DNA of 39,381 nucleotides from Anaerolineae bacterium CFX9 (lineage in GTDB: Bacteria > Chloroflexota > Anaerolineae > Aggregatilineales > Phototrophicaceae): positions 1 to 39,381 of the forward strand of contig SZPD01000003.1 of assembly GCA_030263515.1 (NCBI GenBank), read 5' to 3'. The notes beneath the pieces are model-generated. The model saw only the letters and a list, made by a program, of their open reading frames with translations. It was not told where the DNA came from and searched no databases. Of the stretch, positions 82 through 17,307 are shown piece after piece. The position numbers were made by a program, and so were the translations under genes. Numbering within the stretch: position 1 is the first letter of the stretch; the number at the start of each line of letters is the position of its first letter.

Positions 82-543
82 CTACGGTGTGCCTACGGAG
101 ACGACCAGCGGCGGCGGCTCGCTGATGACCAGCCGCACGGGAACCAGACGACTCTCCTGCACTTCCAGCGTGACGGTGATCTGGCTCGGCGAAATCCCCG
201 CTACCGTTGCGCGCCGGTCACGGGCCACACGGGCGGACAGCGGCACAGTGAAAGTTCCCGGACCGAGGTCGGAAAGATCGGCATATACGGTGATGTCGTC
301 TGCCGCCAGCAGTTGGCGCACCGAGCGCTGCGCACGAAGCTGAACGCTGGCTGTCGAGGTCAGCGTGGAAGCGTTGGTGATGATCAGCCCTTCATCGGGC
401 GTGACGCGGATCGGGATCCGTTCGGGCAGCCGCCACTGCTCAATCGGGTCAGACTGCGACATGGCAGTCATCCAGACAAAAAAGGCAATGACAAGCGAAA
501 TGCCGAACCAGATCAGATTGTTGACGAGTTGTTGGCGGTTCAT
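82..543 (-). CDS. cdaR: YbbR-domain protein, CdaA regulator (N-terminal part up to in-frame TAG)
   Basis: This 153-aa reading frame starts with a short cytoplasmic stretch and one membrane helix (about residues 8-27, LIWFGISLVIAFFVWMTA), followed by one extracytoplasmic YbbR repeat that ends in PPLVVSVGTP. YbbR/CdaR proteins normally carry two to four such repeats and modulate the membrane diadenylate cyclase CdaA. The ATG overlaps the cdaA stop codon as ATGA (540-543), so translation is probably coupled. The frame closes at TAG 82-84, exactly where a linker to the next repeat is expected, and repeat-like sequence continues in frame beyond it. The visible product is therefore probably truncated, unless the TAG is an error or is read through. 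Confidence 0.85.
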   Translation of the reverse strand: MNRQQLVNNLIWFGISLVIAFFVWMTAMSQSDPIEQWRLPERIPIRVTPDEGLIITNASTLTSTASVQLRAQRSVRQLLAADDITVYADLSDLGPGTFTVPLSARVARDRRATVAGISPSQITVTLEVQESRLVPVRLVISEPPPLVVSVGTP

Positions 544-1406: not shown

Positions 1407-1423
1407 GCGCCTTCATCTGCCTC

Positions 1424-3691
1424 CTAGCCGCCCAGTTGTGCGAGCAGCTTTTTGTAGTCATCAACGTGATCAGGTCCCAGTGCGATGATCTGCCGGATGG
1501 TTCCTGCGGCATCCTTGTTAAGACCCGCTTCAAGCTGAAGATCTCCAAGTGCATCCAGTTGTACAATCGCATCCCGCTTTCGCCCCAACTGCTTGTAGAT
1601 CTGAGCGAGGCGAGAGCGCAAACCAGTGTCGTTCGGGTAGAGCGTCACCAGCTCTTCAAGGAGCTGGGTGATCCGGTTGACCTGCCGGTTGCGGGCGAAA
1701 ATGCTCAGCAGGCTGTCCAGACGGCGCACCGCCTCAACCTGATTCCCCTGCCGGAAGTTCAGATCGACCAGCATGCGATGCGCCCGCTCATCTGCCGGCT
1801 CGATCTGGATGATCTCCTCATAGATCTTCTGTGCGCGGCGCATATCCAGCCGCATCTGATCAATATCCGCCATGCGGTGTTTGATATGCACGATCTTGTC
1901 TTTGGGAGCGCTGACACGGTTGGCGATCCGCTCTGCCAGCACATACGTATCCCTCGACTGATCGAAATTGCCAAGCTGATGATAGGTATCCGCCAGATCG
2001 ATGTACTGATCGAGCGCCTCATCCCAGCGTTCTTCGCTTTCCAGCAGCTCGATCAGGCTTTCGCGCACGGAAACATCCAGCGGAGCCAGCTCAAGCACCT
2101 GCGTCAGGATATCCGCTGCGCGCTCATTTTCGCCACGCGCCAGGAACGTCTTGGCGATCACGTTGTATTTGGTGATCGCGTTACGCACACGCCCTTCGCG
2201 CATCATGATCTCTGCCATCCGGATGTGAATCGGCAGATAGTTCGGAGACCATTCCACTGCGCGATGTGCTTCGTCCATCGCCAGCGTGAACAACCCCTGA
2301 CGCATATAACGGTCGATCAGCAGCACCGACTGCGTGAGTTTGTCTCCATGCGCCGCCATCAGGATGTCGATAACGCCCTTTTCGCCCTGTTCGCGCAGCG
2401 TTTCCTCAAGCTGACGGCGTGTATCCGCAACGCGCTGTTTCCAGTCCTTGCCTTCCAGCAGCGCGATAAAACGTCGGTTGATGGCGGTGAGCGTTTCCTC
2501 GTTCATCTGGTCGGTCATACGCGCCAGATGCGTGTAGATCGTCTCGACTTCAGCCGGGTTATCGATCATGTCCGGACGCAGAGAGGCGTCAAAAACCTGC
2601 AAACAGTGCAGCAGGGTCTTGGCGGCATTCTTGTGCCGGTTGAGCTTGAAATATGCCTGTCCCAATCCGTGCAGCGCGCCGAGCGCCAGGCGGGGATCCT
2701 CCGCGGCTTCGCTGAGCGGACGGATCGCTTCCTCCGCTTTCCCCGTCATCAGCAGCAGTCCGCCCAGATTCATCCTGAGCGCCGGGCTGATCATGCGCGA
2801 CTGTGCGAACTGATAGGACGCGATCGCCGACTCATAATTACCCTGACGGTGCGCCTCCATCGCCGCGAGCGCATCGCCAGCAGCTTCCAGCGCGCCGCCT
2901 TCGATCACCTGCATCGCCAGCAGCCCCAGCGCATCGTTGATCGACTCGCCCAGTGGGCCAAGCGGATCACCCTCATCCTGCGGCTCGCGCGAGGTCTCTC
3001 TCGTAACTTCCCGAACTGCCTTCTGGGTGCGCGCCTCCCGGTCAAACGTTCCCACGCGCTGCGCTGCCGGGGCGGTGTCATCTTCAGGCGGCAGAACCCG
3101 TCCGCCGCTTTCCAGGGCACGGAGCGTATTCAGCACCTGCGGGTTGTTCTTGTCCAGCCGCAGGGCGCGCTGCGCTGCCTTGAGCGCCTTGTCGTTCTCG
3201 TCGGTGCGCTGGAAGTTGAACGCCAGAGTCAGGAATTCGCGGACGGCTTTCTTCTTGTCGCCGATGCGCTCATACGCCTGCGCCAGCTTCATATGAACAG
3301 GGATCAGACCGGGGGAAAGTTTGGTCGCGCGATCCCAGTTGGCGATTGCCTTGTTCAGATCGCGCACACTGAGATAGATTTCAGCCACGTTGACGTACTG
3401 CTGTGCCGCTTCGCGCAGGCGTCCCATGCGTTCAAGCACATCAGCGCTCTTCTCCAGCGGGATCGGGTCATCAGGCGCAAGCTGGTGCGCGCGTGTGTAG
3501 ACCTTGAGCGCATCTTCCAGCCGTCCGACTTCGAGCAGCCCCAGCCCCAGATGAATGTGCGCCTCCGCGTCATCAGGAAATTCCTGAATGGCGCGTCCAT
3601 ACGAGGCGATGGCGACCTGCCAGTCCTGGTCCCACGCCGCAGTATGGCCCGCATTCATCGCTTGTTCGTATGCCTGCCGATTTCCGGGCAT
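1424..3691 (-). CDS. Large TPR-repeat protein
   Basis: The 755-aa product is built almost wholly of tetratricopeptide repeats. One block spans about residues 8-190 (for example DAEAHIHLGLGLLEVGRLEDA) and another about 270-750. Between them, at about 195-250, is a charged, Arg/Glu-rich linker. No signal peptide or membrane helix is seen, so it is probably a cytoplasmic scaffold. No catalytic motif is visible and the function is unknown. The ATG is preceded by GAGG at good spacing. The gene lies 40 bp after argF and 17 bp before cdaA on the same strand, so it may be transcribed with the c-di-AMP genes. That link is only contextual. Confidence 0.85.
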   Translation of the reverse strand: MPGNRQAYEQAMNAGHTAAWDQDWQVAIASYGRAIQEFPDDAEAHIHLGLGLLEVGRLEDALKVYTRAHQLAPDDPIPLEKSADVLERMGRLREAAQQYVNVAEIYLSVRDLNKAIANWDRATKLSPGLIPVHMKLAQAYERIGDKKKAVREFLTLAFNFQRTDENDKALKAAQRALRLDKNNPQVLNTLRALESGGRVLPPEDDTAPAAQRVGTFDREARTQKAVREVTRETSREPQDEGDPLGPLGESINDALGLLAMQVIEGGALEAAGDALAAMEAHRQGNYESAIASYQFAQSRMISPALRMNLGGLLLMTGKAEEAIRPLSEAAEDPRLALGALHGLGQAYFKLNRHKNAAKTLLHCLQVFDASLRPDMIDNPAEVETIYTHLARMTDQMNEETLTAINRRFIALLEGKDWKQRVADTRRQLEETLREQGEKGVIDILMAAHGDKLTQSVLLIDRYMRQGLFTLAMDEAHRAVEWSPNYLPIHIRMAEIMMREGRVRNAITKYNVIAKTFLARGENERAADILTQVLELAPLDVSVRESLIELLESEERWDEALDQYIDLADTYHQLGNFDQSRDTYVLAERIANRVSAPKDKIVHIKHRMADIDQMRLDMRRAQKIYEEIIQIEPADERAHRMLVDLNFRQGNQVEAVRRLDSLLSIFARNRQVNRITQLLEELVTLYPNDTGLRSRLAQIYKQLGRKRDAIVQLDALGDLQLEAGLNKDAAGTIRQIIALGPDHVDDYKKLLAQLGG

Positions 3692-3731
3692 AGAAGCCTC
3701 ACGCTTTGTCCGTCACACTCAACATTTCGTA

Positions 3732-4655
3732 TTACGCTGTATCTAATAGTGTAACCAGAATTGCTTTTTGCGCGTGTAAACGGTTTTCCGCCTGCTGAAA
3801 GACGGCAGACTGCGCACCATCCGCCACCTCATCGGTGATTTCGACGCCTCGATGTGCTGGCAGACAGTGCATGACGATAGCATGTCTGCGCGCCAGCTTC
3901 ACCAGATCGCTGTTGACCTGCCAGCCTTCAAAATCCCTCAGGCGGCGCTCCATCTCAGCTTCCTGCCCCATGCTCACCCAGGTATCCGTGTAGATGACAT
4001 CGGCATCAGCCGCCGCCTCACGCGGGTCATTTACAGCATGGAACGAGCCGCCGTTCTTTTCTGCCAGCTCGCTGACCGCTTCCATAAACTGACCATCAAG
4101 TTCATAACCGACAGGCGTGCCGATCACGAAGTGACCACCCAGGTGCGCCACCGCATGGACGAGCGACGTAGCGACATTATTGCCATCCCCCACATACGCC
4201 ACGCGCACACCCCGCACATCGCCAAGCCGCTCGCGGATGGTCAGCACATCCGCCATCGCCTGGCACGGATGATGCGTATCGCTCAAGCCGTTGATCACGG
4301 GAACACCCGCCCACTTTGCCAGTTCAACGACGTGGGCATGGGCGAACACACGCGCCATGATGATATGGGTATACCCGGCCAGCACGCGCGCAATATCGGC
4401 GATGCTCTCGCGCTTGCCAAAGCCGATCTCATCAGGGAGCATATTGATCGCAGTGCCGCCAAGCTGCTGCATCCCCACTTCAAATGAGACGCGCGTCCGC
4501 AAAGACGGCTTCTGAAACACCATCGAGAGAATTTTTCCGCGCAGGAGCGGCTGATTGCCCCCATTACGGAGTTCACGTTTGAGGTCAACTGCGAGATCGA
4601 TGAGCTGCTGGATTTCCTCGCTCGTCCAATCCGCCAGATCGAGAAAGTGACGCAT
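3732..4655 (-). CDS. argF: Ornithine carbamoyltransferase
   Basis: The enzyme makes citrulline from ornithine and carbamoyl phosphate in arginine synthesis. With the start at 4655 (MRHFLDLADW) the protein is 307 aa, the usual family length. The carbamoyl-phosphate loop is at residues 51-55 (SLRTR), HPCQ at 129-132, the ornithine-binding D-x3-SMG at 224-230 and HCLP at 263-266. The frame is open for 17 more codons upstream, but those residues do not resemble the family, and the -10 box of the likely promoter lies inside that stretch, so I prefer the later ATG. The SMG loop argues for OTCase rather than aspartate carbamoyltransferase. It is isolated from other arginine genes in this window. Confidence 0.95.
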   Translation of the reverse strand: MRHFLDLADWTSEEIQQLIDLAVDLKRELRNGGNQPLLRGKILSMVFQKPSLRTRVSFEVGMQQLGGTAINMLPDEIGFGKRESIADIARVLAGYTHIIMARVFAHAHVVELAKWAGVPVINGLSDTHHPCQAMADVLTIRERLGDVRGVRVAYVGDGNNVATSLVHAVAHLGGHFVIGTPVGYELDGQFMEAVSELAEKNGGSFHAVNDPREAAADADVIYTDTWVSMGQEAEMERRLRDFEGWQVNSDLVKLARRHAIVMHCLPAHRGVEITDEVADGAQSAVFQQAENRLHAQKAILVTLLDTA

Positions 4656-4696
4656 GATAATCCCGGGAGACGAAAAAGCGTTTAAGAGTGGCGCTG

Positions 4697-4725
4697 AGTA
4701 TACCACGCGCTCCCGTAATGTCGAA
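4697..4725 (-). promoter_or_regulatory. Sigma70-like promoter of argF
   Basis: On the minus strand TTCGAC (4720-4725) and TATACT (4697-4702) are 17 bp apart. The -10 is also preceded by TGG, giving an extended -10. It lies about 40 bp upstream of the argF ATG. An inverted repeat, CTCGTC (4726-4731) and GACGAG (4734-4739), touches the -35 box and could be a regulator site. Confidence 0.6.
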
Positions 4726-4772
4726 CTCGTCTGGACGAGCGTCCGTTTGCAGAAAAGGCAGCGGCGCAGCGC

Positions 4773-7589
4773 CTAAATGTCGGTCATATCCCGCCAGTTC
4801 TGTCCGACTGACGCATTGCAGACCAGCGGAGCGCGCAGATCTGCCGCGCTCTCCATCACATGGCTGACCAGGCGCGCGGTGGATTCAGCTTCGGCTTCGG
4901 GCACTTCAAGCACCAGTTCGTCATGCACCTGAAGCAGCATCCGGGCGCGGCTTTTTCGCTCACGCAGTTCAGCATGCAGCCGGATCATCGCCAGCTTGAT
5001 GATATCCGCCGCCGTGCCCTGAATCGGCATATTGATCGCTTCACGCTCTGCGGCTTGCTGGATCGTACGATTGCCCTGAAAGAGTCCGGGGAACGTCCGG
5101 CGGCGTCCAAACAGCGTGGTCAGGAACTTCTGCTCACGTGCCAGCCGCTTGGCTTTCTCGATATATTCGCGAACGCCGGGAAGACGCGCAAAATACGTCT
5201 CGATAAACTTCTCGGCTTCTGGCAGGGTGAGATCGCTGTCCCGCGCCAGGCGGAAAGCCCCCATACCATACAGCAGACCGAAATTCACCCGTTTGGCAAA
5301 GCCACGCTGCACTTTGGTGACCTGCTCCAGCGGAATATTGTAGACCAGCGCCGCCGTCGCCGCATGGATATCCTGCCCCTGATGGAAGGCTTCCAGCAGG
5401 TTCGGCTCCTGCGTGATATGCGCCATGATGCGCAGTTCAACCTGTGAATAATCGACCGAGAGCAGCAGGCAGCCTTCCTGAGCGATGAAAGCGCGCCGTA
5501 CTTCGCGTCCTGCCTCGGTGCGAATGGGAATGTTCTGAAGGTTCGGGTTGCTGCTGCTCAGCCGCCCTGTGCCCGCCCCCGTCTGGCTGTAACTGGTGTG
5601 AACGCGCCCCGTCTCCGGATGCACCATGTTCGGCAGGGCGTCTACATAGGTTCCCTGAAGCTTGGTGAGTTCACGGTAATGCAGGATCTTCTCGACGATG
5701 GGATGTTCACCGCGCAGATTGTCCAGCACATCGGCAGCCGTGCTGAAACCATGCGTCGTCTTGCGCAGACCTTCCGCCTTCAGCCCCAGCTTGCCGAACA
5801 ACACGTCATTGAGCTGTTTGGGGCTGTTGATGTTGAATGCGCCAAAACCGCCGCTGAGGTCGAAGATTTCCTGTTCGATGCGCGCGATCTCGGCTCTGAG
5901 GCGCTGGCTGTAGTCCATCAGGAACGGGATATCGAGCTTGATCCCGGTCATCTCCATATCTGTCAGCACCGGGACGAGCGGCATTTCGATCTGCTCGAAG
6001 ACATCGCGCGTGCTGGGCGGGTTGACCGTCCCCCACAGCGGATCGACCTCCGGATCGCCTTCCTGCCTGCCCAGCTTCGGTTCCAGACTGCGCACCAGCC
6101 GATAAGTCACCACTGCATCTGCCGCGGCGTAGGGTGCAGCGCGATCGATGGCGACGCGATCCATTGTGATCTGATCCTTGCCCTTGCCGATCAGTTCCGA
6201 GATCTGCGTCATGTTGACATCAAGTTCGCGCTTGGCCAGCCGTTTCAGCCCCAGCGACTCGCTGCGGGTATCGCGCACCCACTCCGCGATCATGGTATCG
6301 AACGCAACGGGCGAGACGACGATGCCATGCCTTGCCATGACCGCATCGTCATAAGCGGCGTGGTGCGCATACTTCGGTATCTTCGGGCTGGTGAGCGCAG
6401 GGCGCAGCGCCTCGATCACGGTCTCCAGCGGAAGCTGCCTGCCCTCTGCATGACCCACGGGGATGTAATAGCCCGTTTCGCCGTCTGCGCTCAGCGCAAT
6501 GCCGACCAGGACGGCGCGCATCTGATCCGTGCCGGTCGTCTCGGTATCAAAGGCAATGCCCGCCGCGCCGTTCATCACAGCGGCACAGGCAGCCAGCGCT
6601 TCCTCGTCCTGCACGATCACAGTGGGAAACAGTGTGGGCGGCGGCTCCAGCTCGATCTCAGGCTTTGCTTCCAGTTCCGCCATCGCGAACAGCGGAAGCT
6701 GCTCACCGGAGCGCGTCGTCAGGCGGTTCAACTGTTCATAGAAGCGCGTGAATTCAAGCTCACGGAAGATCGCCTCAACAGCGGCTTTATCAAAATCATG
6801 CGCCACACAAGCCGCCAGATCGAGCGTGATCGGCACATCCCGCCGGATCGTCGCAAGATCCTTGCTCAGGAAGGCGAGATCCCGCCCGGCTTCAAGCTTC
6901 TTGCGCACTGACTCCCTGATCTGGTCAAGATTCTCATAGATCGCCTCCAGCGAAGAAAACTGCTGTAAAAGCGCGGTCGCCGTTTTCTCGCCGATTCCGG
7001 GCACACCGGGAATGTTGTCACTGGTATCCCCTTCAAGCGCTTTCAGATCGATGAGCTGACGCGGCTCAAGCTGCCACTTTTCCCGGAAGCGGGCGACATC
7101 GTAAAGCTCATCGGGAACGCCGGGCTTGGGGATCGCCAGCCGGACGGTCGTATGGTCAGTCAGAAGCTGCAGCAGATCGCGATCGCCGGTGATGATGCGC
7201 ACATCCACCCCCTGCGCTTCTGCCTGCCGGGCGGCGGTTCCCATCACGTCGTCTGCTTCATAAGTCGCCAGTTTGAGCACGGGGATGTTGAACGCCTGTA
7301 CCAGCGCGTCGATCCGCCCCAGTTGGTGCGCCAGTTCATCAGGCATTTTTTCCCGTGTGCCCTTGTATTCGGCGTATAACTGATCGCGCCCGCTCAGCCC
7401 TTCGTCAAAGCTGACTGCCAGATAGTTCGGTTTGTCCTTTTCAAGGATATCCATCAGCGCGCGCGCAAAGCCGAAGACGGCGCTCGTCGGCTCACCCTTG
7501 CTGGTCATCAGCGGGCGGTTAATCTGCGCGAAGTAAAAGCGGTATGCCAGCGCATGACCATCCAGCAGGTAGAGCAGCGGGCGCGCCAT
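4773..7589 (-). CDS. polA: DNA polymerase I (with 5'-3' and 3'-5' exonuclease domains)
   Basis: This 938-aa protein fills gaps and removes primers during replication and repair. The N-terminal 5'-nuclease domain spans about residues 1-300 and includes the helix-hairpin-helix GVPGIGEKTA. The 3'-5' proofreading domain keeps the DxE motif (AFDTETTG) and a late YAAAD motif, so it should be active. The polymerase domain shows motif A (DYSQVELRI), motif B (RGFAKRVNFGLLYGMG) and motif C (VHDEL). The start at 7589 (MARPLLYLLDGHALAYR) has GAGGAG seven bases upstream and matches the family N terminus, so the 11-codon upstream extension is rejected. It has its own promoter and ends in TAG. Confidence 0.97.
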   Translation of the reverse strand: MARPLLYLLDGHALAYRFYFAQINRPLMTSKGEPTSAVFGFARALMDILEKDKPNYLAVSFDEGLSGRDQLYAEYKGTREKMPDELAHQLGRIDALVQAFNIPVLKLATYEADDVMGTAARQAEAQGVDVRIITGDRDLLQLLTDHTTVRLAIPKPGVPDELYDVARFREKWQLEPRQLIDLKALEGDTSDNIPGVPGIGEKTATALLQQFSSLEAIYENLDQIRESVRKKLEAGRDLAFLSKDLATIRRDVPITLDLAACVAHDFDKAAVEAIFRELEFTRFYEQLNRLTTRSGEQLPLFAMAELEAKPEIELEPPPTLFPTVIVQDEEALAACAAVMNGAAGIAFDTETTGTDQMRAVLVGIALSADGETGYYIPVGHAEGRQLPLETVIEALRPALTSPKIPKYAHHAAYDDAVMARHGIVVSPVAFDTMIAEWVRDTRSESLGLKRLAKRELDVNMTQISELIGKGKDQITMDRVAIDRAAPYAAADAVVTYRLVRSLEPKLGRQEGDPEVDPLWGTVNPPSTRDVFEQIEMPLVPVLTDMEMTGIKLDIPFLMDYSQRLRAEIARIEQEIFDLSGGFGAFNINSPKQLNDVLFGKLGLKAEGLRKTTHGFSTAADVLDNLRGEHPIVEKILHYRELTKLQGTYVDALPNMVHPETGRVHTSYSQTGAGTGRLSSSNPNLQNIPIRTEAGREVRRAFIAQEGCLLLSVDYSQVELRIMAHITQEPNLLEAFHQGQDIHAATAALVYNIPLEQVTKVQRGFAKRVNFGLLYGMGAFRLARDSDLTLPEAEKFIETYFARLPGVREYIEKAKRLAREQKFLTTLFGRRRTFPGLFQGNRTIQQAAEREAINMPIQGTAADIIKLAMIRLHAELRERKSRARMLLQVHDELVLEVPEAEAESTARLVSHVMESAADLRAPLVCNASVGQNWRDMTDI

Positions 7590-7627
7590 GACTTGACTCC
7601 TCAGTTGAAAATGCGAACACATGAGCG

Positions 7628-7658
7628 ATTATAACGCGGGTACGGCGTTCCGCGCCAA
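7628..7658 (-). promoter_or_regulatory. Likely polA promoter
   Basis: A perfect TATAAT (7628-7633, minus strand) lies 38 bp upstream of the polA start codon. A TTGGCG (7653-7658) sits 19 bp further upstream as a weak -35. Confidence 0.55.
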
Positions 7659-7679
7659 CCTTCTGCTGCGCAGAAACGA

Positions 7680-7710
7680 ACAGCGCACGGATTTTGCCTC
7701 CATGCGCTGT
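7680..7710 (-). terminator. Terminator-like hairpin after the 981-aa gene
   Basis: An 11-bp stem (7680-7690 pairing with 7700-7710, one G-T pair) with a 9-base loop begins 6 bases after the stop codon of the 981-aa gene. On the minus strand it is followed by TCGTTTCT, a weak U tract. It separates this gene from the polA promoter. Confidence 0.55.
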
Positions 7711-7716
7711 CAGGGC

Positions 7717-10662
7717 TTACATCATGCGCTCAAACTCGATGAACTGGCGGATCTCATCTTCCTCAAGCCTGCGTCCGGGCGTGACGATCAGGTAACTATC
7801 CGCCCACACAGAAGCCGGGTCAAGCTGGGGATTCTGTTTGACGACAATTTCCGCCGCGCGCCGCTTGAGGTCGCGGATGACCTCATAGGGTGGCGTCTCT
7901 CCGGGAACCTCGGCCACCAGATACACATATTCATCGGCGGCGCGGATTTCCTCAATCCGCCACGCTTCCTGCCGAAGCTGAAGGTTCATGCCCGCGATCA
8001 GCGCCTTGGACATGCGGTCGCTCAACTGCGCATTGGGATCGCGCAGCATCCACAGATAGGCGTAAGGTGAACGCGCCATCGCTTCCTGTTCGGGCGTCAG
8101 GACAGGGAGCGACTCCATCGTCGCCTTGATCTCCGCCTCAAATTCCAGAGTCGTGGGATCAGGCACAGCGCGCAGAGCTTCGATGATCCGCTTGCCCTGG
8201 CGCTGGATGTCACGCAGATGCGTCGAACCGGCAAAGATCAGTGACAGCGTCAGCTCATCATCCGTGCGCCGGCTGTAGAGCATGAAATCCTTGCCGCTGG
8301 CGGGCAGGTTGATGAAGCGGATGCGTGCCTCATCTGGCTTGGCGTCCCAGTCATCCTTGATGGCGGCGCGCAGCTCATCGATTTCCTCGCCCGGCATCCG
8401 CCCGGCATAAGCGACGATTTCGCCATCCCGTGTGAGCAGGGTCGCTTCAGCAGTCAGCTCCAGCGAGACATCGGTCAGGCTGAGCGCAAGCTGCGCGATG
8501 TAGGGATCATCGATATGGGTCGCTGCGTAGGGAGAAGTCGGCGCTTCGACCTCAACCTCATCCGGCTCAGGCACAAGATCGGAACCGAACTGCGGCGTCC
8601 GCTGCTCGTCATCCTCGCCGTGTGTGGGGCCGAGTTCCTCAACGGCCTCTGCGAAAGCCTCGCCCCACTCAAATTCAGGCAGGCTGGACGGCGCTTTCGG
8701 CGTCTTCCTTTCTTCGCCAAAATCGCCAAAGCCATCGAAATCATCCGCGTCAGGATCGCCGCGGAACTGCATCGATTCCGTTTCGAGATCGCCGGGCTTC
8801 TCCACCACCTCCGCCCCACGACCTGACATGGTGGTCAGGTCAAAGTCGTCACCGGTGAAGCTGCTTTCTGCGGCGTCTTCCGCCTCCAGATAGCTGACCG
8901 CCGCGTCATGCGGGACGGTCATGGCCGCTTCTTCTGCCTCGATACCTGCGATGAACTGCGTAGTATCGAACTCGAAAACATCCGACGGCTCCGGTTCAGG
9001 CGGGAATTCCGGCAGAAAATCCGGCTCGCTCACGAACTTCTCGATATCCTCGTCAAGCGCCTTTCGCCGCTTCCCCTTCTTCGACTTGCCTTCCTTGACC
9101 CAAGACGGCAGCGGCTGCACTTTCGGGCGATGCTCCGGAAGCTGTTTCTCGATGCTGGAGATCAGTTCGGAGATGGAGAATGATTCGTCTTCGGTACTCT
9201 CCAGCACCAGGCGGGCAGTGTTCGTTCCCTCAGATTCAGGTTCGATACGCGGTTCTTCCCCTCGCCGCAGATCAGCCTCGACCTCTGCAAACAGGTCATC
9301 CACTTCTTCCGCCAGCGGAGATTTCTGCCGTGTGCGGCGTTCCTGCTCCCCTCTGGAAGGTTCCGCCGCGCCGCTCTCGTAGTAGGACGCAAAGGCATCC
9401 TGAAGGTCACGGCTGGAGTAGACAACGCTGTCGCTTTCTTCTTCCTCGATAACCTCTTCACCGCGCAGCGCCGCCAGCACATTCCTGAAACCGGGATCAG
9501 TGACGCCGCCAACCAGATCGCTGACCGTGCCCGCTTCTTCCAGCGGTGTGGTGAAGAAATCGTCATCATCAGGCGCGGCTGGCTCAGCCTCAGGCTCGGC
9601 CGCGAGCATGTCTGGAGGAATTTCCGGCAGGTTGGAAGTGGTCTCTTTACGCTGCCGCTCGATCTCGCTGAGCAGCGCATCCATATCGCCGCCAAACGTG
9701 AACTCAACCTGGCGGGCAGTCAGCGGAGGGCGCTGTTCCTGCTGCGGTCGCATCGAATTCACCAGCGTCTCAAACTGGTCTGCCCCTCTGGGTCGATCGT
9801 CCTCAGGGTTGATCGTACCCAGCACACTGGAGAAGAGATCATCGGTCTTCGGCGGAGAAACATCCTGAAGCGGCAGATCGAAGGTCAGCTCATCGACGGA
9901 CGGCTGCTCAGCTTCCACCTCAGCATCAGGAGTGGACAGCGCACCAGAATCCACCATGTCCGCAAACAGATCGCTCGTATCGATCTTGGAAGGCGGCTTC
10001 TCAGCGCGGTGCGGAAAGTCCTCCGGCGTGATGACGAAATCCGCCTCGTCTTCGTCTTCCTCAAAAATCGAGAAATCCTCGAAACTGAGTTCCGGCGGCT
10101 CAAAATCTTCAGCCACATCGTCTTCAGCCGGAACGGCGGGCATCTCACTGGATGAAAACAGGTTTTGCAGCGGTGTGTATTCCGGCAGGTCGGGCGGTCG
10201 ATGCTGGCTGGGGCGCGTGACCGCGTTCGGTGTGGTCGGCGGCATCTCTTCTCGGCTGAGCTTGCGCGTCGGCTTTGACGTGGACTCGCCGAGCCGTGTG
10301 GTGCGCCCTGTCCCTTCAACCGCCTTGTTGATCAGCGGCATGATGTCGCGGGCGGTGAACGGCGCATTGATCGAACCGTTCAGGCTCAGCGAAGCGGTCA
10401 CGCGATCGTCCTGACGCGGCGTCGCGATCACTGCGATATCCGCCTGAATGGTGCGCACCTTGTTCACCAGCGACGAGCCGCTTTCCTGAGGATGTCTGAA
10501 ATCGATGATCACCACGTCATGCGGGTTCTGTGCGAGATACTCAAGCGCGGCAGACGGCGTGACGAACGGGTGTACTTCGTAGTTCCCCGTGCGCTCAAGC
10601 GCCTGCTTGATCGAGATCGCAAACGGAAGCTCCCGGTAGATGATTAAGACATGCGTGATCAC
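7717..10662 (-). CDS. Receiver-like / Roadblock-like / degenerate IS200-transposase-fold fusion protein
   Basis: The 981-aa product begins with a receiver-like domain (about residues 1-118). It keeps the phospho-acceptor position (VVIIDFRHP) but lacks the N-terminal acidic pair (LIIYRE) and the conserved Lys (NAPF). Residues about 120-690 form an acidic, low-complexity linker. About 715-845 (ATLLTRDGEIVAYAGRMPG and after) resembles a Roadblock/LC7 fold. The C terminus (about 867-981) reads like a Y1 transposase: EYVYLVAEVP, then EVIRDLKRRAAEIV, WADSYLIVTPG and EIRQFIEFE. The HUH histidines are Tyr912 and Tyr914 and the catalytic Tyr is Phe974, so it should not cut DNA. Start is GTG with GAGGGAGAG upstream. 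It follows the lipoprotein gene by 31 bp. The function is unknown; domain assignments beyond the receiver are inference. Confidence 0.85.
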   Translation of the reverse strand: MITHVLIIYRELPFAISIKQALERTGNYEVHPFVTPSAALEYLAQNPHDVVIIDFRHPQESGSSLVNKVRTIQADIAVIATPRQDDRVTASLSLNGSINAPFTARDIMPLINKAVEGTGRTTRLGESTSKPTRKLSREEMPPTTPNAVTRPSQHRPPDLPEYTPLQNLFSSSEMPAVPAEDDVAEDFEPPELSFEDFSIFEEDEDEADFVITPEDFPHRAEKPPSKIDTSDLFADMVDSGALSTPDAEVEAEQPSVDELTFDLPLQDVSPPKTDDLFSSVLGTINPEDDRPRGADQFETLVNSMRPQQEQRPPLTARQVEFTFGGDMDALLSEIERQRKETTSNLPEIPPDMLAAEPEAEPAAPDDDDFFTTPLEEAGTVSDLVGGVTDPGFRNVLAALRGEEVIEEEESDSVVYSSRDLQDAFASYYESGAAEPSRGEQERRTRQKSPLAEEVDDLFAEVEADLRRGEEPRIEPESEGTNTARLVLESTEDESFSISELISSIEKQLPEHRPKVQPLPSWVKEGKSKKGKRRKALDEDIEKFVSEPDFLPEFPPEPEPSDVFEFDTTQFIAGIEAEEAAMTVPHDAAVSYLEAEDAAESSFTGDDFDLTTMSGRGAEVVEKPGDLETESMQFRGDPDADDFDGFGDFGEERKTPKAPSSLPEFEWGEAFAEAVEELGPTHGEDDEQRTPQFGSDLVPEPDEVEVEAPTSPYAATHIDDPYIAQLALSLTDVSLELTAEATLLTRDGEIVAYAGRMPGEEIDELRAAIKDDWDAKPDEARIRFINLPASGKDFMLYSRRTDDELTLSLIFAGSTHLRDIQRQGKRIIEALRAVPDPTTLEFEAEIKATMESLPVLTPEQEAMARSPYAYLWMLRDPNAQLSDRMSKALIAGMNLQLRQEAWRIEEIRAADEYVYLVAEVPGETPPYEVIRDLKRRAAEIVVKQNPQLDPASVWADSYLIVTPGRRLEEDEIRQFIEFERMM

Positions 10663-10693
10663 CGCATCTCTCCCTCAGTCAAATCGACACCCG

Positions 10694-11938
10694 CTATGGC
10701 GTCGGCGGCAGGATCAGGTCGAAGTTGATCGTCGAGAACGGCGGGATCAGCGTGAGCGGCAGCGGACTCAGAGAGAACGGGCTGACTGTCACCGTAAAGA
10801 TGCCGACGTTGTTGACCTCGCTGACCTCGGTTACCTGATTGCCACTGTCCACACGCGCCTGCACATTGTAGGTTCCGGCAGAATTGAATGTCAGGCTGAC
10901 ATTGAGCACGATGCTCTCGCCCGGATTCAGGTTGGCGACCACGCCCAGCGGCGACTCTGTGCCCGGCGGAGACACGCTGATCGTGTTCGAGAACTGGCCG
11001 GTGCTGCCCTGCCCCGTGTTGGTAATCTGGACGGTGAAGCTGGAGGATACCGGCGAGTTGCCGGGACCGAGCATGAGCGTCGTCGGACCCGTGATATTGC
11101 TGATGACGAGATCCGCTGGTCCGGGTGTCGGCGTTGCCGTGGGCGGAACAGGCGTCAGTGTCAGCGTGCTGGTCGGCGGCGGGGTGGCGGTCACAGCGCT
11201 GGTCGGCGGCGGCGGCGTCGGCACGATCGGGATGCCGGCGCAGAGCGTGCCGAGCAGCGTGACGAACTGACCACTGAACCAGCCGATATTGACTCCTACA
11301 CGCACCTGCCACCAGTCATTCGAGCCTGTACGCCCGATCACCGGAGCCTGCACGCCAGCCCCCACAGTCGTGATGATGGGATAGTTTGTGCCCGGTCCCT
11401 GACGCAGGTTGAGACCGACATTGGTCAGCACGCGGCAGGTCGGGTCATTCGGGTTGATGATCGGCAGGTTGGGGCTGACGGCGATCGTCGCCGTGACCTG
11501 TGCCTGCTGTGTGCGGGCATTGATGGTGATCTGCGCCGGGTCGCTGGCGACGTTGGCGCGATAGGCGATCACCTGAAGCGGGATCGAACCGGCGGTCGTC
11601 GGCGTGTAATCGAGCACGGCGTTCATATTGCGGTCGCCCGTCGGCGCTTCGGATGAGATCGTCTTGACGATCGTGCCGTTGGCAGACAGCGTGATCCGTG
11701 TAATGCCGACGGAGTCAGTGGCGTTCACGCTCACCAGCACCTGGCTGCCGACGACGATTTCACTGTTATTGGCGGGGGAAATGATCGTCACCTGAGGTCT
11801 GCCGCTGGCAGGCTGCGACGGCGCGATCGTTTGCTGCTGGTTGGAAGGCCCTGTCGTCAGGTTGCACGCCGTGACGGTGAACAGGACGACACTGATGAAC
11901 AACGAGATCAGGCGCGGTCGCGACACAAGTGAACGCAT
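10694..11938 (-). CDS. Lipoprotein with Ig-like, SH3b and CARDB-like domains
   Basis: This 414-aa protein starts with a signal peptide and lipobox (FTVTAC, Cys25), so it should be anchored on the outer face of the cytoplasmic membrane. In order it has an Ig-like beta domain (about 48-140), a bacterial SH3 domain (about 168-232, with LNLRQGPGTNYPII and GWFSGQFV), a Pro/Thr-rich linker (about 238-275) and a CARDB-like adhesive domain (about 276-385, ending EVNNVGIFTV). Such proteins usually bind cell-wall or surface polymers; no enzyme motif is present. AGAGGA precedes the ATG at good spacing. The next gene, encoding the receiver/transposase-fold protein, follows by 31 bp and is likely co-transcribed. 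Confidence 0.85.
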   Translation of the reverse strand: MRSLVSRPRLISLFISVVLFTVTACNLTTGPSNQQQTIAPSQPASGRPQVTIISPANNSEIVVGSQVLVSVNATDSVGITRITLSANGTIVKTISSEAPTGDRNMNAVLDYTPTTAGSIPLQVIAYRANVASDPAQITINARTQQAQVTATIAVSPNLPIINPNDPTCRVLTNVGLNLRQGPGTNYPIITTVGAGVQAPVIGRTGSNDWWQVRVGVNIGWFSGQFVTLLGTLCAGIPIVPTPPPPTSAVTATPPPTSTLTLTPVPPTATPTPGPADLVISNITGPTTLMLGPGNSPVSSSFTVQITNTGQGSTGQFSNTISVSPPGTESPLGVVANLNPGESIVLNVSLTFNSAGTYNVQARVDSGNQVTEVSEVNNVGIFTVTVSPFSLSPLPLTLIPPFSTINFDLILPPTP

Positions 11939-11979
11939 ACCATTTCCTCTGGGTGCAGACGATTTTTGTCGTAACAGAA

Positions 11980-11988
11980 ATCATACCA
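11980..11988 (-). promoter_or_regulatory. Extended -10 promoter of the lipoprotein operon
   Basis: On the minus strand the sequence TGGTATGAT gives an extended -10 element 41 bp upstream of the lipoprotein ATG. No clear -35 is seen. It lies downstream of the V4R-gene terminator, so it probably starts the lipoprotein and 981-aa gene transcript. Confidence 0.45.
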
Positions 11989-12049
11989 CGAACCACGCAA
12001 AACCGCTGTGCGTTCCGCCATCGAAATCTGTACGCCGACACCCGGCATG

Positions 12050-12080
12050 AAAACAGCCCCGCGATATCTGCGAGGCTGTG
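12050..12080 (-). terminator. Terminator of the V4R gene
   Basis: On the minus strand ACAGCC and CGC pair with GCG and GGCTGT around one mismatch and a seven-base loop, followed directly by TTTT. It lies about 30 bp after the V4R stop codon. Confidence 0.6.
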
Positions 12081-12109
12081 TGAGGATCAGGCTGAAAGCG
12101 CCGTTTGCG

Positions 12110-12742
12110 TCAGGAGAGCGGTTCCTTGAAGATCGTATAACGCCCCATATCATCTCCCTTGGCGATACACGTGGTCATATCGACCTTGAATTCGCGCCCG
12201 CCGCTGACCCAGCTCAAGCCTTCCTGAAGCAGCCCCTGCCCCATGTAGCAGACCGGCTTGTCCACCTTCCGGTTCCAGCACATCGGGCAGCGTTCCAGCG
12301 TATAGATGATCCTGTCGCTGCCTTCTTCGTAGACATTCGAGATCTGGTCAGAAAACTGTGAGAAGATGTTCGCCATGGCAGGCACGCCAACGCGGAGCTT
12401 GGCATTGAGCGGCAGCACCTTGAAGGCGAGATCTCCAACCCCGGCAAGCGCGCCGAACGAGCGCAGCCCGCCCGCAAAGATCGCTCGCCCGGCTCTCAGC
12501 GCCAGTCCACGACCGCCGCGCGGGCCGTACATTTCTTCGAGCGCCATGTTCAGCGCGGTGAAATCGGAGAAATCAAAGCCTTTTTCGAGGTTGTCCGCCG
12601 GATAGTTATCGATGTACTGAGAAAGCCCCGCAAGATTGAGAATGGCGTTGAGACCGTTCCGTCCCATGATCTCTTCCATCGCATCGATGGTCAGCCGGGC
12701 AAACTTGTTGGGATAGTAATATCCGCTTTTCTCCGGTGGCAT
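12110..12742 (-). CDS. V4R (4-vinyl reductase-like) domain protein
   Basis: The 210-aa product fits the V4R/hydrocarbon-binding family, which folds like heme-NO-binding sensors and binds small hydrophobic ligands. The N-terminal half (YYYPNKFARLTIDAMEEIMG) is the typical helical part. The C-terminal half has the Cys-containing V4R core: ERCPMCWNRK, KPVCYMGQGLLQEGL and MTTCIAKGDDMGRY. The last Cys often found in GD-x-x-C is Gly here. No membrane segment is seen. GGAGG stands upstream of the ATG. The gene has its own promoter and terminator, so it is probably a single unit. The ligand is unknown, and nothing nearby points to bacteriochlorophyll synthesis. Confidence 0.8.
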   Translation of the reverse strand: MPPEKSGYYYPNKFARLTIDAMEEIMGRNGLNAILNLAGLSQYIDNYPADNLEKGFDFSDFTALNMALEEMYGPRGGRGLALRAGRAIFAGGLRSFGALAGVGDLAFKVLPLNAKLRVGVPAMANIFSQFSDQISNVYEEGSDRIIYTLERCPMCWNRKVDKPVCYMGQGLLQEGLSWVSGGREFKVDMTTCIAKGDDMGRYTIFKEPLS

Positions 12743-12830
12743 TATGCCGAGTCCTCCAGTCGGTGCGCAGGCGTCGCTTCGCCGGGTTACGCCATCAGTT
12801 TAACGCTGCGATTGTCATATCCGTCTTTTT

Positions 12831-12860
12831 AGTATACGGCACAACCAGCGAGATTCCCAA
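12831..12860 (-). promoter_or_regulatory. Promoter of the V4R gene
   Basis: On the minus strand TTGGGA (12855-12860) and TATACT (12831-12836) are separated by 18 bp, about 88 bp upstream of the V4R start codon. The rest of the 154-bp gap to miaB shows nothing else that I can support. Confidence 0.5.
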
Positions 12861-12896
12861 CATTGCAAGGCGGGTGAAGGATTAAGGTTCGCCTCG

Positions 12897-14282
12897 TTAT
12901 CCGGCGAAAACCATCAGCGAGTCATCGAGCGGCGTGGGCAGTTGAGTCCCCGGCAGGCGACCGAGCATACTCCATGCGCCCGTCCATGTGATCTCGACGT
13001 TTGCCAGCCGCCCCTTCCAATCCGCCTCATCCTCGAAGAAGACCAGCTTGTTCTGCGGCGTGCGTCCGCGCCAGCGCCCCTTGACGTTCTCCTCGACGAG
13101 GACTTCAACGACCCTGCCGAGGTAGCGTCCATTGATCTCGCTCAGCACCTGTTCCTGCAGTGCCTCGATGGCGTGCAGGCGGGCATGCTTGACCGCTTCC
13201 GGCACATCGTCGATCATGCGCCGCTCGCTCACCGTGCCGGGGCGCGGGCTGTAGCGCGCCAGATGTACCTTGTCGAGCCGGAGGTCAGCCAGCAGGTCAT
13301 ACGTTCCCTGGAACTGCGCATCCGTCTCGCCGCAGAAGCCCACGATGATATCGGTGTGGATGGCTACTTCAGGAATGCGCGCACGGATACGGTCGATCAG
13401 GCGGCGATACTGCTCGACAGTGTAGCCGCGCTTCATGTTTTCCAGCACCACATCATCGCCTGCCTGCACCGGAACCTCGATATGCGGCATCACGCGCGGC
13501 AGCTCGGCAACCGTGTCGAGCAGCTTGTCGGTCATCCAGTTCGGGTGGCTGGTCAGGAAGCGGATGCGCAGGATACCGGTCTCCTCAGCTACCTGATGCA
13601 CCACGCGCAGCAGATCCGCCAGGTCAGGGCCATCGGGAATATCCTTGCCATAGCGATCGACGATCTGCCCCAGCAGCGTGATCTCTTTCACACCCTGAAG
13701 CGCCAGACTCCGCACATGCGCTACGATCTCGCCGACGCTGCGGCTGCGCTCGATGCCACGGCGGAAAGGGATGATGCAGAATGAGCAGGCGTGCGAACAG
13801 CCGTAGACCACCGGCACATGTGCCGAGACCAGATTGCCCTGCTCGTGCAGCGGCAGCAGCAGCTCACCATCCTGAATCCGATCGCGGCGGTCCCGCTCGA
13901 TCACTTCCTGTTCGAGAACTTCCGCCTCGGTCAGGCGATCCTTGAGGAAGTTCACCATCGGCTGCGGCTCAGACGGCGGCATAAAGACATCGACGTAGGG
14001 CAGCTTTTTGCGCAGCGCCAGCGGATCGCGCACGCCGACCATGCAGCCCATCACGCCGATGATCGTATTGGGTTGTTCACGCTTGCGCTGTGCCAGCAGG
14101 TTGAGGCGTCCGTATGCCTTGTCTTCTGCGCTCTGGCGAACAACGCAGGTGTTGACGACAAAGATTTCGGCGTCATCCGGGTTTTCCGCCGCGGTGTGCC
14201 CCATGCGCTCCAGTTCGGAAGCGAGAAGCTGAGAATCGGCGGTATTCATTTGACATCCGAGAGTCCAGATGTGATAACGCAT
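12897..14282 (-). CDS. miaB: tRNA-2-methylthio-N6-dimethylallyladenosine synthase
   Basis: MiaB is a radical-SAM methylthiotransferase that modifies adenosine 37 in tRNAs. The 461-aa product has the N-terminal MTTase domain with three cluster-binding cysteines (Cys10 in LGCQMN, Cys46 in NTCVVR, Cys80 in GCMV). The radical-SAM CxxxCxxC is at Cys162, Cys166 and Cys169 (CSHACSFC), and a C-terminal TRAM domain spans about 390-450. I place the start at 14282 (MRYHIWTLGCQMN); the frame is open 19 codons further upstream, but that stretch is not family-like and contains the predicted -10 box. MiaB fits better than RimO or MtaB on the N-terminal motifs and Cys spacing, but the substrate cannot be proved by eye. 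Confidence 0.9.
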   Translation of the reverse strand: MRYHIWTLGCQMNTADSQLLASELERMGHTAAENPDDAEIFVVNTCVVRQSAEDKAYGRLNLLAQRKREQPNTIIGVMGCMVGVRDPLALRKKLPYVDVFMPPSEPQPMVNFLKDRLTEAEVLEQEVIERDRRDRIQDGELLLPLHEQGNLVSAHVPVVYGCSHACSFCIIPFRRGIERSRSVGEIVAHVRSLALQGVKEITLLGQIVDRYGKDIPDGPDLADLLRVVHQVAEETGILRIRFLTSHPNWMTDKLLDTVAELPRVMPHIEVPVQAGDDVVLENMKRGYTVEQYRRLIDRIRARIPEVAIHTDIIVGFCGETDAQFQGTYDLLADLRLDKVHLARYSPRPGTVSERRMIDDVPEAVKHARLHAIEALQEQVLSEINGRYLGRVVEVLVEENVKGRWRGRTPQNKLVFFEDEADWKGRLANVEITWTGAWSMLGRLPGTQLPTPLDDSLMVFAG

Positions 14283-14319
14283 GAGCTTTTCAGACCGTGA
14301 ATTTAGTTGACGAACGTTT

Positions 14320-14349
14320 ATTTTAACGGGTGGGCGCAAGCCGCGTCAA
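14320..14349 (-). promoter_or_regulatory. miaB promoter
   Basis: On the minus strand TTGACG (14344-14349) and TAAAAT (14320-14325) are 18 bp apart, a near-consensus sigma70-type promoter. It lies 37 bp upstream of the chosen miaB ATG and supports that start over the longer reading frame. Confidence 0.65.
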
Positions 14350-14381
14350 TGCAGTCGTCGGCTGTGGCAGCGGCGTCCGTC

Positions 14382-14795
14382 TCACGACTCACACGGCACT
14401 TGCAGCAAAGCCACCGCCCCAAACCCGGCATCCTCGCGGCATTCCACACGGAAAGCGATCCGGTTATCTTCCAGTGTGACGTAATCAGTCACGTCGAACA
14501 TGAACGGAACAGAGCCGTCAACCGCGCCCATCCGCCGCCCGTTCAGATACAGGATGAGCGTGCCCGGCGCATGCTCGATAGAGAGATAGTAGCGCACACA
14601 GATTTCCGCGATCTCCAGATCAAACGTGCGCTGAAGCGTCGCCCCCCATCGTTCATCAAAACGTTCACTGCATCGCCACAGCCTGAGCGATTCGACAGGC
14701 TGCGCCTCTGCGCCGAACTCAAACAGGTCGGGCTGAAGTTCAAAATATTCGACTGTCCAGCCGGCATCCAGTGAGATGATCTGCGTGGGTTCCAT
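14382..14795 (-). CDS. Small beta-sandwich (galactose-binding-like) protein, possibly leaderless
   Basis: The 137-aa product (MEPTQIISLDAGWTVEYFE) resembles the sugar-binding jelly-roll found at the N terminus of GH2 enzymes: WGATLQRTFDL, then APGTLILYLNGRRMGAVDG and VPFMFDVTDYV. It stands alone, with no catalytic domain. No signal peptide is seen. The start is uncertain. I chose ATG 14795 because an extended -10 (TGGTACAAT) ends seven bases before it, which would give a leaderless mRNA, and no ribosome binding site is visible. The earlier ATG at 14804 overlaps that -10. The function is unknown; carbohydrate binding is inference from the fold-like pattern. Confidence 0.7.
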   Translation of the reverse strand: MEPTQIISLDAGWTVEYFELQPDLFEFGAEAQPVESLRLWRCSERFDERWGATLQRTFDLEIAEICVRYYLSIEHAPGTLILYLNGRRMGAVDGSVPFMFDVTDYVTLEDNRIAFRVECREDAGFGAVALLQVPCES

Positions 14796-14802
14796 AGCGC
14801 AC

Positions 14803-14811
14803 ATTGTACCA
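14803..14811 (-). promoter_or_regulatory. Extended -10 placed for a leaderless transcript
   Basis: On the minus strand TGGTACAAT ends seven bases before the ATG at 14795, so transcription would begin at or next to the start codon. No convincing -35 is present. Confidence 0.4.
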
Positions 14812-14880
14812 TGCGCTGGATACGCCGCATCCCCGCCCGCAGCAACAGTCACCAGACCGCTAAGGGTCGGAAAAGCTCAC

Positions 14881-14921
14881 TTTTGCGCAATTTCAGATTT
14901 AGCCGCACAATTGCGCCAAAA
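14881..14921. repeat. Inverted repeat in a divergent promoter region
   Basis: TTTTGCGCAATT (14881-14892) and AATTGCGCCAAAA (14909-14921) are inverted copies differing by one base insertion. The left arm contains the 8-bp palindrome TTGCGCAA. The pair lies between the beta-sandwich gene (minus) and the radical SAM gene (plus), so it could be an operator or an mRNA stem-loop for the latter. Confidence 0.45.
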
Positions 14922-14962
14922 GATCCTGTTCGCTTGTCTGGTGGTTTTCCTGAGGTTGCAGC

Positions 14963-16453
14963 ATGCGCTCTACCGTCCTGCTCTATAACCCGATCAGCAC
15001 CTCACCCGGCAAGCAGCGGCTTCCCCTTTCGCTGCTGTCGGTCGCGGCGGTGATCGCAGCGGATTACGATGTCGAGTTCATCGACGGCAACCTGATCGCC
15101 GATCCGGCGCAGGCGATCATTGACCGCGCCAGGGCAACCGGCGCAAAACTGCTGGCTTGCACGGTGATGCCGGGTCCCCAGCTTCGGCAGGCTGTCCCCG
15201 TCTGCAAGCGCGTCAAGGCAGCGCTGCCCGATCTGACGATCCTGTGGGGCGGTTACTTCCCCACCCAGCATGAAAAAGTCGTGCTCGCCAGCGGCTACGT
15301 CGATTATGTCATTCAGGGTCAGGGCGAAGCGCCGTTCCGGCAGTTTGTTGATCGCCTGCACCAGGGTGGCTCACTGACGGATATTCCCTCGCTCGGATAC
15401 ATCGAGAATGGCGAAGTCCGGGTGAATCCCCGCGCGCCTGTGGTTCCGCTCAACAACCTGCCGTGGTATCCCTACGATCGGATTGATGTCTCGCGTTACA
15501 TCGGCAAAAGCTACCTCGGCAGCCGGGTTCTTTCGCACAACACGTCATTCGGCTGCCCGTTCGCCTGCAATTTCTGTGCCGTGGTTGCGCTGGCGAACCG
15601 CCGCTGGATTCCTGAAAGCGGTGAGCGCATCAGCGAGATCGTGCTGCATCTGCACAAAAACTGGCAGATCGACGGTCTGGAGTTCCACGACATGGACTTC
15701 TTCGTCCGGGAAGACCGCACCGCAGATTTCGCCGACCGCCTGTCGCACGCTGTCGGCGATTCGATCCGCTGGTGGGGGCTGGGGCGGATCGACACGCTGA
15801 TGAGCTACAGCGACGAGACTTGGGAAAAAATGAAGCGCAGCGGCGCTAAAATGATCTTCATGGGCGCAGAAAGCGGCGATGACGACACCCTCAAACGGAT
15901 GAACAAGGGCGGCAAAAGCAGCACCAGCATGACGCTGGCGCTGGTTGAGCGGATGAAGCACTATGGCATCATCCCAGAGCTGTCATTCGTGCTCGGCAAT
16001 CCGCCAGACCCGGCAGCAGACATCGAAGCGACCATCGCCTTCATCCGCAAAATCAAGCAGATCAACCCGGCGACCGAACTCGTCCTCTACATCTATACGC
16101 CCGTGCCCCAGGAAGGCAGCATCCTGCTGGATGAAGCCACCAAACTCGGCTTTCGCTTCCCGGAAACGCTCGACGAATGGGCTAGCCCGGAATGGGCAAA
16201 ATTCGCCATGCGCCGCGATCCGGGAACACCGTGGTTCAAGGATACCGTCCGCAGCCGGGTGCGCAACTTTGAGTCGGTCATCAACGCCTACTACCCGACA
16301 GTCACCGATCTGCGCCTGAAAGGCAATGTGCGCCATTTGCTCAAGGGGCTTTCCGGCTGGCGCTACAGGCTGGAATACTATCAGTGGCCTTATGAGCTGA
16401 AGGCGCTTCAGCGGCTGATCCATTATCGCCGCCCGGAGACGACAGGATTTTAG
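14963..16453 (+). CDS. Radical SAM protein with N-terminal B12-binding-type domain
   Basis: The 496-aa product has a cobalamin-binding-type Rossmann domain at about residues 1-135 (VLLYNPISTSPGKQRLPLSL and ILWGGYFPTQHEKVVLA), then a radical SAM domain with CxxxCxxC at Cys198, Cys202 and Cys205 (CPFACNFC). The GE motif and later GAESGDDDTLKRMNKG are typical of the class B methylase-like family. No DxHxxG motif is seen in the first domain, so any cobalamin would not be bound by that His. The C terminus (about 400-496) is family-specific. TGAGGT lies upstream of the ATG. Substrate unknown; members act in lipid, cofactor or natural-product chemistry. It stands as a single gene. Confidence 0.85.
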   Translation: MRSTVLLYNPISTSPGKQRLPLSLLSVAAVIAADYDVEFIDGNLIADPAQAIIDRARATGAKLLACTVMPGPQLRQAVPVCKRVKAALPDLTILWGGYFPTQHEKVVLASGYVDYVIQGQGEAPFRQFVDRLHQGGSLTDIPSLGYIENGEVRVNPRAPVVPLNNLPWYPYDRIDVSRYIGKSYLGSRVLSHNTSFGCPFACNFCAVVALANRRWIPESGERISEIVLHLHKNWQIDGLEFHDMDFFVREDRTADFADRLSHAVGDSIRWWGLGRIDTLMSYSDETWEKMKRSGAKMIFMGAESGDDDTLKRMNKGGKSSTSMTLALVERMKHYGIIPELSFVLGNPPDPAADIEATIAFIRKIKQINPATELVLYIYTPVPQEGSILLDEATKLGFRFPETLDEWASPEWAKFAMRRDPGTPWFKDTVRSRVRNFESVINAYYPTVTDLRLKGNVRHLLKGLSGWRYRLEYYQWPYELKALQRLIHYRRPETTGF

Positions 16454-16541
16454 AGGGGCGCGCTGAAATCAACGGCGCAGCAGCAAGCGATCAGGGGCGC
16501 GTCTGCATCCGCCGAATCACGTTCAGCACAGCTTGCGCATA

Positions 16542-16570
16542 TTGAAGCAGACCGAACGCCGCGCTATACT
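16542..16570 (+). promoter_or_regulatory. Promoter of the cytochrome c gene
   Basis: TTGAAG (16542-16547) and TATACT (16565-16570) are separated by exactly 17 bp, 47 bp upstream of the cytochrome start codon. This is a good sigma70-type match. Confidence 0.65.
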
Positions 16571-16617
16571 CAACGCATTGTTCTTTACGTCACAATGTAG
16601 AGAGGACGCTGGTTCCT

Positions 16618-17307
16618 ATGCGCGGCACGTTGACTCGATTCTTGTTTGCCACGGTGGCACTGCTCGCCGTGAGCCTTGTGGCAGCCTGCGGCACTGTCGC
16701 CACACCGGAATGGGCAGCCGAAGCCCAGGAAACACGCGCCGCGCTGGCGGTCACACAGACTTACCTGACCTCGATCGCGCCGACCGCAACGCCTGTGCCT
16801 CCGACGCCTACACCCACCTCAGTCCCCCCCACTGCCACCCCGATCCCGCCCACAGCGACGGAAGCGCCGCCGACCGCCACCCCTGAGCCGACTGCCGCGC
16901 CGACCGCCACAGCGGAGCCTTCCGGGGCGGACGCCAATGCCGAAGCGATTACCGCAGCGCTGGCTGCCGGTGATGCCGCCCGTGGTCAGACCGTGTTCGC
17001 CGCACAGCATACCCTGCCGGATGGATCGGCCTGGGCATGCTCGTCCTGCCACTCGGTAACGCCGGATGAACTGCGGCTGATCGGTCCCGGACTGTGGAAC
17101 GTGGCAGCCCGTTCCCAGGCATATGACATCGGACAAACCGCGCCAGCATACATCGAAGCTTCCATCCTGCATCCACAGGAATTCATCGCGCCGGTGGCAG
17201 AGGGCCAGCCCGGCTGGGCTTTGAATATGCCTGCTGGCTGGGATGAAGCCCTCAGCGATCAGGAAGTCGCGGATCTCGTCGCCTATCTGCTGACGCTGGG
17301 CGAGTAA
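16618..17307 (+). CDS. Monoheme cytochrome c lipoprotein
   Basis: The 229-aa product has a lipoprotein signal (SLVAAC, Cys24), then a long Pro/Thr/Ala-rich linker (about 53-102), then a class I cytochrome c domain. The heme motif CSSCH is at residues 141-145, and Met204 (LNMPAGW) is a likely axial ligand. The final helix (DQEVADLVAYLLTLGE) is typical of small c-type cytochromes. It should sit on the outer face of the membrane and carry electrons. No oxidase or maturation gene is nearby, so its partners are unknown. Its own promoter lies upstream and a strong terminator follows. AGAGAGGA is about 12 bases before the ATG, a little far. Confidence 0.9.
   Translation: MRGTLTRFLFATVALLAVSLVAACGTVATPEWAAEAQETRAALAVTQTYLTSIAPTATPVPPTPTPTSVPPTATPIPPTATEAPPTATPEPTAAPTATAEPSGADANAEAITAALAAGDAARGQTVFAAQHTLPDGSAWACSSCHSVTPDELRLIGPGLWNVAARSQAYDIGQTAPAYIEASILHPQEFIAPVAEGQPGWALNMPAGWDEALSDQEVADLVAYLLTLGE

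Follow-up and report, generated by a model that had tools for sequence, protein, structure and literature searches.

The minus-strand gene at positions 7717..10662 of the window, the 39,381-nucleotide stretch of Anaerolineae bacterium CFX9 analysed here, starts with GTG and encodes a protein of 981 aa in which a receiver-like domain, an acidic linker, a Roadblock domain and a dead IS200/IS605-type (Y1) transposase domain follow each other. The sequence data support reading this gene as a vertically inherited, non-catalytic TnpA exaptation outside any mobile element, because the HUH motif is lost in 71 of 71 homologous domains, the gene is present in a single copy, its synteny with polA is conserved, it is under purifying selection and the dead domains form one clade apart from the TnpAs. 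This suggests that these poorly known bacteria (Chloroflexota, class Anaerolineae) have put a transposase to new use as a part that binds or acts as a scaffold without cutting. A first-pass annotation of this DNA had proposed that a domesticated transposase domain now serves for binding within a protein of signalling or scaffold type; its domesticated and non-catalytic nature is borne out by the same five observations, while the reuse for binding fits them but is inferred.

The Y1 domain (residues ~865-981; 7720..8070, minus strand) is assigned from Pfam, AlphaFold2 (AF2) modelling and structure search. The Pfam family Y1_Tnp matches residues 871-976 with 28.5 bits against a cut-off of 23 (E 1.8e-6), and the NCBIfam IS200 model matches residues 869-976 (E 3.6e-7), under its own equivalog cut-off. 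Y1_Tnp is also matched independently by 42 of 47 homologues (best E 4.5e-11) and by a homologue from a sister family (E 7.3e-14), and a PDB sequence search with the 981-aa protein finds the IS200 transposase 2f4f (E 7e-4). In an AF2 model of residues 695-981, based on 47 sequences and with a mean pLDDT of 91.5, residues ~857-981 resemble TnpA, with a Foldseek E-value of 2.5e-6 to 2xma and a VIA Z-score of 14.3 to 2fyx over 120 residues at 3.1 A. ISDra2, IS608, 2f4f and 2fyx are the TnpA-fold matches of the model in Foldseek and VIA-align, and TnpA-DNA complexes rank among the best structural matches. The first-pass annotation had read a Y1 pattern at about residues 867-981 and advised AlphaFold and Foldseek runs on the C-terminal region; the pattern is confirmed by the Y1_Tnp score and the TnpA matches of the model, in which TnpA and Roadblock folds were both found, and a C terminus without the Y1 fold, the outcome named as refuting, was not obtained.

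The catalytic residues of this fold are missing. Y912-V913-Y914 (7921..7929, minus strand) stands at the HUH position and F974 (7741..7743, minus strand) at the position of the nucleophile tyrosine in the alignment, exactly where the first-pass annotation had placed Tyr912, Tyr914 and Phe974. Both HUH histidines are present in none of the 71 aligned homologous Y1 domains, in contrast to 14 of 15 Chloroflexota TnpAs. Within the order of the window (47 domains) the HUH position mostly reads Y/F-V/I-Y, and in other families of the class mostly YLQ; at the nucleophile position 42 of the 47 domains of the order have phenylalanine, whereas 14 of the 18 from the rest of the class have tyrosine. The domain also differs in charge: in the order, window included, its pI is nearly always ~4-6, and in the sister family it is ~9, a difference that the first-pass annotation had not reported. 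HUH is retained by none of the homologues, and none was seen in a mobile setting; homologues with the catalytic residues in mobile elements would have spoken against domestication.

The Roadblock/LC7-fold domain (residues ~715-862; 8077..8520, minus strand) was assigned from the AF2 model and structure search. Residues ~711-836 resemble MglB (6hjm, Foldseek E 1.2e-4, Z 12.3) and 3cpt (Z 12.1), and the structures matched by Foldseek and VIA-align are MglB, Ragulator p14/MP1 and Mon1, which agrees with the Roadblock-like segment that the first reading had seen between linker and Y1 domain. The Pfam profile Robl_LC7 matches neither the 981-aa protein at an E-value of 1 nor its homologues at 0.1; therefore this assignment is one by structure only. 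The same profile does pick out three other proteins of the genome.

The receiver-like domain comprises residues 1-120 (10303..10662, minus strand) and is recognised by Pfam (Response_reg, E 2.8e-6, slightly below the cut-off) and by sequence matches, the best being to CheY2 (E 6e-5). Its phosphorylation site is incomplete. The acidic pair is replaced by Y9-R10 and the lysine by A100, as had been noticed before, but the phospho-acceptor D54, which the first-pass annotation had missed, is retained. Most sister-family receivers, and some in the window's order, do have the lysine. Between receiver and Roadblock domain lies the linker (residues 126-705; 8548..10287, minus strand), defined by composition and presumably disordered, whose acidic character had been recognised from the beginning; it has a net charge of -99 and 26% Asp/Glu. 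The linker evolves faster than the three domains by dN/dS comparison, yet it holds two conserved blocks which are candidate short binding motifs, one at residues ~376-405 (GTVSDLVGGVTDPGFRNVLAALRGEE; 9448..9537, minus strand) and one at residues ~483-522 (LESTEDESFSISELISSIEKQLPEHRPKVQPLPSWV; 9097..9216, minus strand).

Matches to the protein were found in 57 of 61 genomes (the window's own and 60 relatives), some of these matches being other receivers, and in about 44 homologues, not counting the window's, a single ORF encodes all three domains. Most genomes of the order encode the three-domain protein, which also turns up in other Anaerolineae families; a phylum-wide search revealed the pair of Roadblock and Y1 in several more families of that class. 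A homologue search for the same domain order with a conserved YxY had been suggested; the domain combination and, within the order, mostly the Y/F-V/I-Y signature are indeed shared, but the other families mostly depart from it. In the sister family (f9) the domain order is receiver-Roadblock-linker-Y1, as seen in the sequence and in a second AF2 model of one homologue, whose mean pLDDT is 73 because of the low-confidence linker. This model matches receiver, Rag (Roadblock-bearing) and TnpA structures, the receiver with a Z-score of 18.0 to Spo0F; its Roadblock part was judged by Foldseek (Rag proteins) and profile, the VIA matches being to the receiver. Sister-family genomes also contain, beside the fusion, separate Y1 proteins (L203, L204, L205, L206, L207, L209) that lack HUH, measure ~150-205 aa and carry a polar tail at the N terminus; one genome has two of them.

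Against public genome contigs a query with the single protein found no relatives, and a query with the alignment found 25. The named ones are metagenome bins of Anaerolineae and Aggregatilineales, among them Chloroflexi bacterium OLB15. One contig carrying the gene, JAHHHY010000002.1 (L253), is labelled as the cyanobacterium Pleurocapsa minor, a label that looks wrong.

With respect to descent, the dead Y1 domains form one clade apart from the TnpAs with a bootstrap value of 100, a grouping which the alignment to the dead-domain profile may favour. The dN/dS values of the Y1 domain, for computable pairs only, lie between 0.01 and 0.33 and are similar to those of the receiver and Roadblock domains, and the gene is the sole Y1_Tnp match in its genome. 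Two further origins were weighed against this background. That the resemblance to TnpA is convergence on a ferredoxin-like fold without kinship could appeal to the mere 13-20% identity between the window's domain and solved TnpAs, but the domain is matched above a curated cut-off by sequence alone, the Y1 half of the family profile retrieves ordinary TnpAs at E ~1e-17 in the phylum search, and the sister-family domain reaches 28% identity to a solved TnpA; we regard convergence as extremely improbable. Hardly more credible is an active or recently inactivated transposon gene that was captured by fusion and is decaying or still mobile. It would account for the fold and the Pfam family which the domain has in common with true TnpAs, but not for a single copy, conserved synteny, purifying selection and family-wide loss of HUH. 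On these four grounds a mobile element was rejected; a pseudogene was rejected on purifying selection, and a chance pattern on the Y1_Tnp matches in the protein and its homologues.

A conserved neighbour, which the first-pass annotation had not reported, is polA, the gene of DNA polymerase I (4773..7622, minus strand), 95 nt downstream. It follows on the same strand within 5 kb at 26 of 45 loci in the order and at 19 of 20 in other families, and within 500 nt at 20 of 45 and 18 of 20 loci, respectively. The run of genes that contains polA also includes a CdaA-like diadenylate cyclase (DAC domain, 540-1406). On the other side, 32 nt upstream, a CARDB / Big_7 / SH3 protein (10694..11938, minus strand) is a conserved neighbour within the order, being close upstream in most of it, and a V4R-domain protein (12110..12742, minus strand) is an upstream neighbour in part of the order. 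Neither CARDB nor V4R neighbours were seen at the sister-family loci, whereas polA is present there. A paralogue of the V4R protein (43% identity) is encoded at another place in the genome, next to a Roadblock gene (L220 183-1215), so that the pairing of Roadblock and V4R recurs, near the fusion and at L220.

The site upstream of polA is also occupied by simpler genes. Receiver-Roadblock genes without Y1 stand there in other families (L108/L126, L109/L125, L176 212-940, L180 371-1159), and so does a Roadblock-only ORF of 152 aa, directly upstream of polA (L197 319-777). In a class-wide scan of this site most other families had no recognisable gene of this kind; hence the family does not extend to the whole class. 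These arrangements suggest that the pair of Roadblock and polA came first, the dead TnpA being a later addition, or that the families without Y1 have lost it.

As to function, we consider it an even call that the protein is an adaptor in which an exapted TnpA (Y1) domain, fused to a receiver-Roadblock protein upstream of polA, serves as a dimeric scaffold for Roadblock/small-GTPase signalling. Roadblock and TnpA folds each dimerise in known relatives, and therefore the 981-aa protein is probably a constitutive dimer. Its two Roadblock domains would together offer a docking platform to a small GTPase of the Ras type or to a further Roadblock protein. The receiver would serve as an input that binds proteins or can still be phosphorylated to some extent, and partners would be tethered by the acidic linker with the conserved short motifs it contains. 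The dimer of dead Y1 domains, which are acidic in this order, would be a dimerisation or protein-binding module and no DNA cutter. A role with a GTPase is possible given that the genome also encodes, elsewhere, a Ras-like GTPase and three other Roadblock proteins. However, no GTPase gene was found among the Pfam-scanned neighbours (540-17307), which counts against this part of the reading, as does the missing Robl_LC7 match of the Roadblock domain, and no MglA gene was found adjacent to the fusion.

Against the scaffold stand the linkage to polA, which points to DNA metabolism over GTPase signalling, and the basic Y1 domains of the sister family (pI ~9), which suit DNA binding. Reading of DNA by the Y1 domain is possible, more so in the basic sister-family versions; the acidic domain makes it less likely for the window. 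The corresponding alternative, that the dead Y1 domain binds single-stranded or hairpin DNA without cutting and that the protein couples PolA, or the signalling by Roadblock and receiver, to the state of the DNA (gap, fork, repair), gains from a place directly upstream of polA that is conserved across families, from a sister family with a basic domain and a mostly retained tyrosine, and from the DNA complexes among the top structural matches. We nevertheless hold it to be unlikely, since almost all domains of the order, the window's included, are acidic, and since receiver-Roadblock and Roadblock-only versions also sit at polA, so that the polA link needs no Y1 domain. The still more specific proposal of a DNA-structure reader, made from the dead HUH transposase fold, through which signalling by receiver and Roadblock/small GTPase would be linked with the activity of DNA polymerase I, seems distinctly improbable to us. 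It is unlikely, too, that polA is linked by shared transcription only and that the protein acts elsewhere (cell polarity, envelope, pili) together with its CARDB/SH3 and V4R neighbours. The closeness of the CARDB/SH3 gene in most of the order, the Roadblock gene paired with the V4R paralogue at its separate locus and the precedent of MglA/MglB/RomR (PMC12719032) favour this explanation, but the sister family has kept polA without CARDB or V4R neighbours.

A search of the open-access literature found no description of a receiver-Roadblock-dead Y1 fusion, in agreement with the first-pass annotation, which knew of no described role. A 2018 survey of TnpA_Y1 proteins took those of unusual length for fusions or annotation errors and dropped them, required a complete core domain and read missing core motifs as non-function (PMC6006769); therefore proteins of the fusion type are probably absent from it, and such families could be filtered out. 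Compared with known systems, the fusion shares with the IS200/IS605 TnpAs (2f4f, 2xma, 2ec2, IS608, 2fyx) the fold, the core hydrophobics, a conserved Trp before the last strand and the final helix. It differs from them in the loss of HUH and, in the window's order, mostly also of the tyrosine, in the attached receiver and Roadblock domains, in its single copy and syntenic position, and in a surface that is acidic in the order. Exaptation of a gene from the IS605 world for regulation is also seen in TldR, which derives from TnpB and not, like the fusion, from TnpA. The function of TldR is known: it is an RNA-guided transcription factor (PMC13418256). Among Roadblock/LC7 proteins, MglB, MglC and Ragulator resemble the fusion in fold by structure comparison, but here the domain is part of a three-domain chain and is unmatched by Robl_LC7. 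Functionally, the nearest parallel to a receiver-linker protein with Roadblock partners is RomR of Myxococcus xanthus, which speaks for the scaffold reading as a hub for Roadblock proteins with an N-terminal receiver, a long disordered linker and an acidic tail (PMC12719032); going by its described architecture, however, RomR has neither a Roadblock nor a Y1 domain. The exaptation has been inherited widely, often beside polA, and the ladder of Roadblock-only, receiver-Roadblock and receiver-Roadblock-dead Y1 genes at one locus makes its path testable. TnpA_REP/RAYT proteins are likewise Y1 domains kept by the host without a transposon, and they retain HUH and tyrosine and act on REP DNA (PMC8266576, PMC6006769). 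While these known domesticated transposases keep their chemistry, the fusion family is without the residues for it, and the fold is kept as a module of signalling type.
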